7,199 nt of DNA, taken from contig JAGXSO010000109.1 of the NCBI GenBank assembly GCA_018333775.1, forward strand, positions 1-7,199, given 5' to 3'. The stretch comes from Truepera sp. (GTDB taxonomy: Bacteria; Deinococcota; Deinococci; Deinococcales; Trueperaceae). The notes beneath the pieces were generated by a model that was given only the letters and a program-made list of their open reading frames with translations, did not search any database and had not been told where the DNA came from. Every line of letters starts with the position of its first letter. The first letter of the stretch is position 1. Shown piece by piece: positions 2,950 to 5,940 of this stretch. The position numbers and the translations under genes were made by a program.

Positions 2950-2985
2950 TTGACGCTGCCAGGCGCCAGGGGTAGAGTGGCGTAA
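2950..2985 (+). promoter_or_regulatory. Promoter of the pyr operon
   Basis: TTGACG (2950-2955), 17 bp, then TAGAGT (2973-2978) is a strong sigma-A type promoter; +1 would be the A at 2985. That places the transcription start only five bases before the PyrR-binding hairpin, so the whole attenuator lies at the very 5' end of the mRNA. Confidence 0.8.
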
Positions 2986-2989
2986 GTTT

Positions 2990-3020
2990 CCTTTAACTCG
3001 GTCCCGCGAGGCCGGAAAGG
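2990..3020 (+). promoter_or_regulatory. PyrR-binding RNA hairpin of the pyr leader
   Basis: GGTCCCGCGAGGCC (3000-3013) fits the Bacillus PyrR site ARUCCNGNGAGGYU apart from its first and last bases, which change together and still pair (G-C). The upper stem pairs 3000-3003 with 3010-3013 and leaves the hexaloop CCGCGA (3004-3009), matching CNGNGA. C2999 pairs with G3014. An internal bulge (AACU, 2995-2998) separates this from a lower stem CCTTT (2990-2994) with AAAGG (3016-3020). The 3' arm contains the ribosome site of the leader ORF, so PyrR with bound UMP should block leader translation. Confidence 0.88.
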
Positions 3021-3022
3021 GG
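3016..3022 (+). promoter_or_regulatory. Shine-Dalgarno site of the pyr leader ORF
   Basis: AAAGGGG lies five bases before the ATG at 3028. Its first five bases are the 3' arm of the lower stem of the PyrR hairpin, so ribosome access and PyrR binding should exclude each other. Confidence 0.7.
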
Positions 3023-3027
3023 TAGTT

Positions 3028-3144
3028 ATGGTACATCCACAAGACAAAGGTGTTGAGAGGCGCCGTGCGGGCGCTTTTTTTATGGCCGCTAAACTCCGGC
3101 ATCGCGTATCAAGGGGTCCATGCCACAAGCGGTACCACCCATGA
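3028..3144 (+). CDS. pyr operon leader peptide (38 aa)
   Basis: A short ORF begins at ATG 3028 with a good ribosome site and ends at TGA 3142-3144. The peptide starts MVHPQDKGVERRRAGAFF and ends KRYHP; it is not expected to have a function as a protein. The intrinsic terminator (3056-3081) lies entirely inside it and its T-run encodes part of Ala plus Phe-Phe. A ribosome translating the ORF would cover the 5' arm and stop the terminator folding. This is the arrangement proposed for the Thermus pyr leader, where a translating ribosome replaces the Bacillus antiterminator. Three consecutive Arg codons (3058-3066) cover the 5' arm. Function is inferred from architecture; translation is unproven. 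Confidence 0.65.
   Translation: MVHPQDKGVERRRAGAFFMAAKLRHRVSRGPCHKRYHP
3056..3081 (+). terminator. Intrinsic terminator (attenuator) of the pyr operon
   Basis: GCGCC (3060-3064) pairs with GGCGC (3070-3074) around a five-base loop; 3056-3059 (AGAG) can extend the stem into the run of seven T (3075-3081). Termination here would give an RNA of about 97 nt from the predicted start at 2985. Because it precedes pyrR, it controls the whole pyrRBC operon. Confidence 0.88.
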
Positions 3145-3149
3145 AACCA

Positions 3150-3175
3150 GGGCGACCACGTGGGGTCGCCCCTAC
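3150..3175 (-). repeat. REP-like palindrome with GTAG foot
   Basis: GGGCGACC (3150-3157) and GGTCGCCC (3164-3171) form a perfect 8-bp stem with a six-base loop. Read on the minus strand, the tetranucleotide GTAG (3175-3172) stands directly 5' of the hairpin. That is the layout of REP sequences moved by RAYT/TnpA-REP transposases. No transposase is in the window, and copy number elsewhere cannot be seen. There is no T-run, so it is not a terminator. Confidence 0.6.
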
Positions 3176-3206
3176 TGACTACTGGCTCCTGGCTTCTGAC
3201 TACTGA
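3175..3206 (+). repeat. Heptanucleotide tandem repeat
   Basis: Four tandem 7-mers of the form CTGRCTN run from 3175 to 3202: CTGACTA, CTGGCTC, CTGGCTT, CTGACTA, followed by a partial CTGA. The array abuts the REP-like palindrome and ends nine bases before the pyrR ribosome site. Being non-coding and a multiple of seven, it could vary in copy number between strains. Confidence 0.75.
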
Positions 3207-4683
<1,477 letters not shown>

Positions 4684-4687
<4 letters not shown>

Positions 4688-5940
4688 GCCGAAGCGTTAT
4701 TACCAACGCGCGCCTGATCGGCGAGCAGAGCTTAGCCGACCTGTATCTAAAGGACGGCCTGATTGAAGGGATTAACCTCGGCGGTGAGGTGAGCCACACC
4801 TTCGACGCCGCGGGTAAGCTTGTTACCCCGGCCTTTATCGACCTGCACACTCACCTGCGCGAACCGGGCCAGGAGGTCAAGGAGGATTTAGCCAGCGGCC
4901 TAGCGGCAGCAGCAGCCGGAGGGTATGGCACCGTGGTCAGCATGGCCAACACCGACCCGGTCATCGACGACCCCGGCCTGGTGACCGATCTGCTCGCCAA
5001 GGCCGAGCGGCTAGGGCTAGCCCGGCTCCGCCCGGCGGCGGCGCTGAGCCGCGGCCTTAAGGGCACGCAGCTCACCGACTTTGCCGCGCTGCAAGCTGCC
5101 GGAGCGGTGATGCTTACCGACGACGGTATCCCTGTGGCCGACGCTCATCTGATGCGCCGCGCCTGCGAGTACGCCGCTGAGCTGGGCCTCCTTATCCAGA
5201 CCCACTCCGAGGAGCCCAGCCTGCGCCAGGGCGGGGTGATGAACGAGGGTGCCGTGAGCCAGCGCCTGGGCCTGCCCGGCAACCCGGCGCAGGCCGAGGC
5301 GGTCATGATCTACCGGGATTGCGAGCTGGCCCTGATGACCGGCGCCCGGGTCCATATCGCCCACGTCTCCTCACGGCGCGGTCTGCAACTTATCGAGTGG
5401 TTCAAGGCGCAAGGCGCGCCGGTTACCGCCGAGGTCACGCCGCACCACCTCACCCTGACCGACGAGGCCTTGGGCACCTTCGATCCGCTCTATAAGGTGG
5501 CGCCGCCCTTGCGCACCGCCGAGGATGTGGCTTATCTGCGCGCGGCACTGGCTCGAGCGGTGGTGGACTGCATCGGCACCGATCACGCCCCGCACACCCG
5601 CGCCGAGAAAGACCTCGACCTGCTGCAAGCTCCTTTTGGCATCGCCAACCTCGAGGTGGCCTTCCCGCTCTTGTACACCAAGCTGGTGCTGGACGGGGTG
5701 CTGACGCTAGCCGGCTTGCTCCACTACTTCCAGAGTGGCCCGGCCAAGGTGATGGGCTGGCCTGCGCCGAGCCTGGCCCCTGGCACCCCGGCTGATCTGA
5801 CCGTACTCGATCTGGAAAGTGCCAGGCCCGTCACTCCCAGCGCCTTTAAGAGCAAGGCCAAGTTCAGCCCCTGGGACGGCTGGGAGCTGCAGGGCTGGCC
5901 GGTAGCGACCTTTGTGCGCGGGAAACATGTCGGCGGTTAG
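4684..5940 (+). CDS. pyrC: Dihydroorotase, class I
   Basis: PyrC cyclises carbamoyl-aspartate to dihydroorotate, the step after PyrB. At 418 residues it has class I length (class II enzymes are about 350). The metal-binding residues are all present: His55 and His57 in DLHTHLREPGQEVKED, Asp146/Asp147 in LTDDG, His174 in QTHSEE, His227 in IAHVSS and Asp300 in GTDHAPH. FGIANLEVAFPLL and the PADLTVLDL / KSKAKFSPWDG end complete the signature. It is therefore a catalytic enzyme, unlike the inactive pseudo-dihydroorotases (PyrC') paired with some ATCases. The ATG overlaps the pyrB stop by four bases. It is the last gene of the visible pyr operon; no terminator follows and only 55 nt separate it from the next gene. 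Confidence 0.97.

Follow-up and report, generated by a model that had tools for sequence, protein, structure and literature searches.

How might PyrR govern a pyrimidine operon whose leader carries a PyrR hairpin and an intrinsic terminator, with a short open reading frame (ORF) running from the one straight across the other? We addressed this question for a Truepera sp. locus within a 7,199-nt stretch of DNA (hereafter the window). It begins with the terminal part of a metH-like gene, recognized by gene reading and NCBIfam, followed by a Phd-family antitoxin-like ORF with an overlapping 130-codon ORF (1598-2241) and by an osmC-like gene. The 130-codon ORF, for which NCBIfam gave no match at E 1e-5, is perhaps the toxin partner of the antitoxin. 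Next on the plus strand are pyrR (3225-3761; GTG start, own Shine-Dalgarno sequence GGCGGAGG; NCBIfam PyrR equivalog NF003549, 241.8 bits), pyrB (3758-4687; NF002032, 362.1 bits) and pyrC (4684-5940; NF006841, 657.5 bits), joined by ATGA overlaps at both junctions, and behind pyrC stands a Crp/Fnr-like gene with NCBIfam scores under the cut-offs. The window's PyrR is a normal member of its family. It is 95% identical to that of the sister genome G096 and 79% identical to that of a Trueperaceae MAG (L001), and its closest solved structure, 1ufr, was deposited as a pyr mRNA-binding attenuation protein.

Hairpin, overlapping ribosome-binding site and start codon

The PyrR-binding hairpin, identified with Rfam RF00515 and by comparison, occupies 2990-3020 (+), has a loop of the GGTCCNGNGAGGCC type and pairs CCTTT (2990-2994) with AAAGG (3016-3020). 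Its 3' arm is overlapped by a Shine-Dalgarno sequence, AAAGGGG (3016-3022, +). An ATG at 3028 opens a leader ORF of 38 codons (3028-3144, +), which reads through the 10-pair stem (3055-3079) and the T-run (3075-3081) of an intrinsic terminator (+) to a TGA at 3142-3144. A first-pass annotation of the sequence had named these elements in this order, and direct reading and folding bear out each of them. A promoter scan of the window found one promoter-like site against a shuffle mean of 0.1, the hexamers TTGACG-17-TAGAGT at 2950-2978 (+), at a distance of 11 nt from the hairpin. Transcription is predicted to start approximately at the hairpin's 5' arm; among 83 related rows, a TANNNT motif ending 7-9 nt ahead of the hairpin was counted 52 times.

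With cmscan, the Rfam PyrR model, which spans hairpin to terminator, was placed on 2986-3083 at 40.1 bits (E 0.0059), short of its gathering score of 54. The hairpin folds with -11.8 kcal/mol (2988-3022). Comparison of whole-leader folding with shuffles was discarded as uninformative, the 109-nt leader folding no better than its shuffles (z -0.30). The minimum-energy fold of 2985-3144 lacks the PyrR hairpin, and we assume that co-transcriptional folding outweighs this full-length fold.

The comparison comprised 92 Deinococcota pyrR loci (30 and a further 62), drawn from 111 genomes of the phylum, of which 98 gave a PyrR match, some weakly or partially. The hairpin is present in 91 of these 92 loci. 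A pattern search recovered it in 85 loci and in the window; it was placed by hand in L113, L114 and L149, and L115 was re-registered. In L106, L109 and L112 (refetched as L220, L219 and L218) it lies about 1.4-1.5 kb upstream of pyrR, and these loci are outside the 89 rows (88 loci and the window) on which the counts below are based; a further locus, L107, is cut at a contig end. In the three refetched loci, the hairpin, a GTG leader and a terminator-like stem precede another gene, which indicates that the control unit starts with a different gene. A covariance model of hairpin and start codon matched 88 of the 111 genomes, 83 of them once only, and missed G005, G006 and G007, the genomes of three of the four loci L113, L114, L115 and L149. 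Two PyrR-like loops, tandem or nested, lie just ahead of the leader start in these four loci (refetched as L205, L204, L206 and L212, respectively), where they are perhaps two PyrR sites.

The hairpin is maintained by compensatory change. In an alignment of 36 of the 74 distinct hairpins, which omitted rows that had an additional base or irregular spacing, 11 pairs are kept in 98.7% of cells. Double-sided changes number 11, against a shuffle mean of 2.0 and no equally high value in 500 shuffles; they are confined to three pairs, a spread that 48 of the 500 shuffles also reach.

The start codon is equally constant: it follows the last G of the hairpin by 6-10 nt in all 89 rows, as ATG in 65 and GTG in 24. 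Of these rows, 74 are of the leader type; in the other 15, the start was scored as sharing pyrR's frame. The 15 include L172, a frameshift artefact which is in frame only via a split pyrR and which we count neither as a direct form nor among the 70 leaders considered below. Against an assumed 16S tail, the window's Shine-Dalgarno sequence forms a duplex of -12.7 kcal/mol, close to the median of the 89 rows (-13.4) and far from that of a random control (-3.0). Its unpaired probability in a 2985-3055 transcript ranges from 0.01 to 0.40, the hairpin by itself leaving it largely paired. Since hairpin (-11.8 kcal/mol) and Shine-Dalgarno duplex (-12.7 kcal/mol) are about balanced, PyrR could tip the choice between them.

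An open frame across the terminator

The terminator of the window has a stem energy of about -15 kcal/mol (-14.6 and -15.1), and the first bases of its T-run pair with the 5' side of the stem; a simple promoter and terminator scan of the window listed no terminator site. Taken alone, the window says little about the leader ORF: one of the two other frames is also open past the stem, so an open leader frame here proves nothing, and its significance is comparative. With a threshold of -5 kcal/mol or better, 70 of the 74 leader-type rows have a terminator. This criterion superseded an earlier terminator finder, which had accepted 37 of 68 leader rows with a T-run.

In every one of the 70 terminator-bearing rows, the leader frame continues without a stop past stem and T-run; the number falls to 66 if starts that directly precede a stop are kept instead of being passed over for a GTG two bases further along (L113, L132, L146 and L168). 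The other two frames are open in 25 and 42 rows to the stem end and in 25 and 40 through the T-run. Removal of near-copies left 39 leaders, all open to the stem end, as compared with 14 and 23 for the other frames. Shuffling of the spacer with the stem kept gave an expectation of 27.8 open leaders out of 39, and multiplied together, the per-locus probabilities give about 10^-6.3. Composition thus yields much of the openness, but not all of it; the spacers of the 70 rows are poor in T (12%), which makes the openness partly compositional. The first-pass annotation had suggested conservation of hairpin, Shine-Dalgarno sequence, ATG and open frame across Deinococcota as a check on its reading, and this conservation is found, with starts in 89 of 89 rows and frames open in 70 of 70 (66 without the skipping rule).

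We also considered, and rejected, a leader peptide with a function of its own. Three of the first ten codons specify different amino acids in the window and in its sister genome, and across groups the peptides vary widely, with close relatives sharing pieces. Probably the sequence of the peptide is irrelevant, and translation itself is what counts. Between start codon and stem lie 17 to 76 nt, with 27-39 nt in 60 of the 70 rows, distances at which a ribosome of the usual footprint would have to elongate, not merely initiate, to mask the terminator's 5' arm. We estimate that about 50 nt of polymerase travel are available for a ribosome to start.

Proposed mechanism and its alternatives

We consider it likely, at a probability of roughly 80%, that the window carries a PyrR-controlled, leader-peptide-coupled transcription attenuator. 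From the arrangement of its parts we infer that PyrR and UMP bind the hairpin, that the leader is translated and that the ribosome masks the stem. The transcript would begin approximately at the hairpin. At low UMP, the hairpin would be free of PyrR, and a ribosome could bind AAAGGGG, initiate at ATG 3028 and trail RNA polymerase; about eight codons on, it would mask the 5' arm of the terminator, and polymerase would continue into pyrR-pyrB-pyrC. At high UMP, PyrR-UMP would clamp the hairpin and hide the Shine-Dalgarno sequence, so that no ribosome enters, the terminator folds and transcription ends. In most relatives, the position of the leader's end at the pyrR start may add translational coupling, which a dispersed repeat appears to have severed in the lineage of the window. 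That a translating ribosome operates this attenuator had been put forward in the first-pass annotation, and the 89 starts in 89 rows, the 70 open frames in 70 and the location of the Shine-Dalgarno sequence in the 3' arm support this reading.

The alternative that survives best, though we regard it as unlikely, is that control is mainly by translational coupling, with PyrR repressing translation of the leader and thereby that of pyrR, and with a secondary role for the terminator. Coupling is favoured by the 62 of 70 rows in which the leader stop falls between -5 and +22 relative to the estimated pyrR start, 15 of them with an exact ATGA overlap, as well as by the leaders without a detected terminator (four Deinococcota rows and seven of 31 Acidobacteriota loci) and by the 14 loci in which pyrR would be repressed directly. 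Half of the stops in question (31 of 62, at +8, +19 and +22) are inside the pyrR coding sequence, however, and may have arisen as by-products of that sequence. Up to the pyrR start, no stop interrupts the leader frame in 62 of 70 rows, compared with 20 and 34 for the other frames; in the 25 rows with at least 35 nt between terminator and pyrR, the respective numbers are 18, 2 and 9. Two observations argue against coupling as the main output: the terminator is kept in 70 of 74 leader-type rows, and in the window the leader stops 83 nt ahead of a pyrR with its own Shine-Dalgarno sequence, yet the terminator is retained.

Leader-peptide-coupled attenuation remains our preferred reading, with coupling as a possible addition to it: in most relatives, as suggested by stops overlapping or abutting pyrR (62 of 70 rows), translating the leader may in addition promote translation of pyrR. 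The first-pass view that opening the terminator is the leader's only task is too narrow for these relatives, although opening the terminator as such is retained. Exceptions to the link between leader and pyrR are the window and seven other rows. In the window, a copy of a dispersed intergenic repeat (3092-3218, +; core GGGCGACCACGTGGGGTCGCCC) separates terminator and pyrR, which would apparently explain the lost link. Window positions 3140-3215 match the sister genome 36 times, including once at that genome's pyr locus; G083 and G001 gave no match. Twelve other copies that were aligned reach leftwards to different limits (one to 3092, six to 3118-3134 and five to 3141-3142), and the left edge of the repeat, between 3092 and 3141, is thus uncertain. 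The final codons and the stop TGA of the window's leader are repeat sequence, and the ancestral part of the 38-codon ORF amounts to its first 21 to 37 codons at most.

A Bacillus-type attenuator, in which the hairpin acts as an anti-antiterminator, an antiterminator pairs the hairpin's 3' arm with the terminator's 5' arm and the ORF is incidental, is very improbable for the window, although a hairpin of the same family stands ahead of a terminator here as well. We compared the complementarity of these two arms with that of shuffles, an arm-to-arm test that replaced an earlier, blunt one on whole-region energy (Deinococcota: 66 rows, mean z -0.11, 3% at p<=0.05, window p 0.17; Bacillota-type: 36 loci, mean z +0.59, 19% at p<=0.05). 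The Bacillota-type set consisted of the 36 loci, out of 79 searched, with a model match before pyrR and a terminator, excluding Thermus, Meiothermus, Omnitrophota and Acidobacteriota loci; here, 18 of 36 loci reached p<=0.05 (mean z -1.94), and 22 had a Watson-Crick run of at least 6. Among 68 Deinococcota rows (L103 and L115 were left out), p<=0.05 was reached in eight and a run of at least 6 in eight, with a mean z of -0.19, whereas the window itself gave p 0.53 and a longest run of 3. Seven of the eight significant rows have, on reading, GGCC in both terminator and hairpin arm. Antiterminator complementarity in Deinococcota as a set is at chance level. As the first-pass annotation had supposed in favouring the ribosome over an antiterminator RNA, no antiterminator signal emerges from the phylum as a set, while the same test detects the Bacillota-type one.

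Significant pairing in two of five Omnitrophota loci (mean z -1.14) is a further point on the side of an antiterminator, which may exist in that phylum alongside the leader design. An incidental ORF would not be expected to stay open in 70 of 70 rows when the other frames do so in 25 and 40. Among the Bacillota-type control loci, the hairpin is followed by a start codon at 5-11 nt in 15 of 36, and the frame of this start is open through the terminator in seven and stops within reach of the 5' arm in four more. Two of these seven loci, L005 (from about 2373) and L010 (from about 2346), have an ATG downstream of the hairpin whose frame crosses the terminator and is that of pyrR.

Least probable of all is attenuation as in E. 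coli pyrBI, in which UTP-dependent pausing of polymerase would determine how closely a ribosome follows it on the leader ORF, PyrR playing a minor part: a leader ORF across a terminator is common to both, but the window has no U-run from start to stem, the spacers of the 70 rows contain only 12% T, and the PyrR hairpin is conserved with compensatory changes.

Known systems, direct repression and other phyla

The mechanism that we favour, PyrR-gated translation of a leader ORF, is already known as a proposal for Thermus, of which the window is a further member. For the pyrR-pyrB-bbc-pyrC leader of Thermus strain ZO5, Van de Casteele et al. are said to have proposed in 1997, in J Bacteriol, that a translating ribosome prevents terminator formation; this single locus reportedly has a PyrR homologue and a terminator without an antiterminator. 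The window shares PyrR, the terminator without antiterminator and, as inferred from sequence, the terminator opened by a ribosome, but it comes from the phylum's Trueperaceae side, and its leader falls short of pyrR, apparently through the repeat. In the Bacillus subtilis pyr attenuators, a PyrR-binding hairpin likewise lies upstream of an intrinsic terminator, and hairpin and PyrR are of the same families as in the window, which in place of antiterminator complementarity has a Shine-Dalgarno sequence, a start codon and an open frame. Mycobacterium smegmatis PyrR, by what Fields and Switzer reportedly found in 2007, represses translation, and there too the PyrR site overlaps a ribosome-binding site; the hidden site of the window differs in belonging to a leader ORF and not to a pyr gene, the direct form being found in 14 relatives. 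In the E. coli pyrBI attenuator, finally, a ribosome on a leader ORF opens the terminator in response to UTP-dependent polymerase pausing, whereas in the window an RNA-binding protein would gate initiation.

Among the matches listed, as far as their titles and the starts of their abstracts reveal, we found no published test of the 1997 Thermus model. The passages available from one source name the PyrR motif among RNA families and are silent on leader peptides for it (PMC3766115). New in our study are the phylum-wide comparison of 70 rows, the finding that in relatives the leader overlaps pyrR, a link seemingly broken by the repeat in the window, the evidence that direct repression was adopted repeatedly, and the extension of the design to Omnitrophota. 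That a metabolite-binding protein may switch transcription via translation of a throw-away ORF had earlier reportedly been proposed from one Thermus locus. The comparison of many loci backs this proposal as no single locus could and suggests that it reaches into another phylum, and among the relatives are natural designs that lie between attenuation, translational coupling and direct repression. A caution also follows from the comparison: the functional element of a regulator can be a short ORF that spans a terminator and has gone unannotated.

In 14 Deinococcota loci, the Shine-Dalgarno sequence of the hairpin serves pyrR itself and no terminator is present, and the position of the hairpin over pyrR's own start fits the site expected of a translation repressor. 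In the window, the hairpin does not overlap the Shine-Dalgarno sequence of pyrR, which begins at 3225, 204 nt behind the hairpin. A rapidly built PyrR tree covered a hand-labelled subset of the loci, 76 rows in all, with two of the 16 direct rows coming from Acidobacteriota; on it, the direct form requires five changes, four of them forced by well-supported branches. L087, which has a leader without a terminator and a stop abutting pyrR, groups with direct forms on this tree and looks like an intermediate between the two designs. In G092 and G094, a second PyrR hairpin (L221 1644 and L222 1925, both +) with an overlapping Shine-Dalgarno sequence stands directly ahead of an ORF about 4 kb downstream of pyrR; by eye, the first residues of this ORF are pyrC-like. 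G095 likewise has a second hairpin match.

Outside Deinococcota, hairpin matches were obtained in 230 of 384 Omnitrophota and 36 of 297 Acidobacteriota genomes searched. We examined 35 Omnitrophota loci (the 30 best-scoring and five earlier ones), of which 21 have a leader open through a terminator before pyrR and seven more reach the 5' arm, shares that are biased upward because the search model includes start-codon columns and only top-scoring loci were read. The remaining seven comprise two loci without a detected terminator, three without hairpin or start by pattern, and two early stops (in L262 after two codons; in L252 after four, and here nothing downstream matched a pyr gene). In the frame control, for which 27 of 34 loci could be scored, the leader frame reached the 5' arm in 26 (other frames 2 and 12, expectation 12.5) and was open through the stem in 19 (other frames 1 and 10, expectation 7.8). 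A leader stop within the terminator loop, as in L047 and L060, is permitted if the ribosome acts by masking.

Of 31 Acidobacteriota loci, 10 have an open leader with a terminator, seven a leader without one and two the direct form; one reaches the 5' arm, one (L280) stops early, and 10 lack hairpin or start by pattern. The frame test on 10 loci found eight open, against 3 and 6 for the other frames and an expectation of 5.5. We give even odds to the broader idea that protein-gated leader-peptide attenuation is a general mode of PyrR action in at least Deinococcota and Omnitrophota, and perhaps in Acidobacteriota. One module of hairpin plus start would then serve three outputs, namely control of a terminator, coupling to pyrR via an overlapping stop, and direct repression of pyrR or pyrC; switches between them would follow from acquiring or losing a terminator, and direct repression would have evolved on more than one occasion. 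One of the Acidobacteriota leaders without a terminator (L228, from 1502, +) abounds in CTTTCTCAC-like repeats and ends inside pyrR; it is a pyrimidine-rich leader on a pyrimidine gene.
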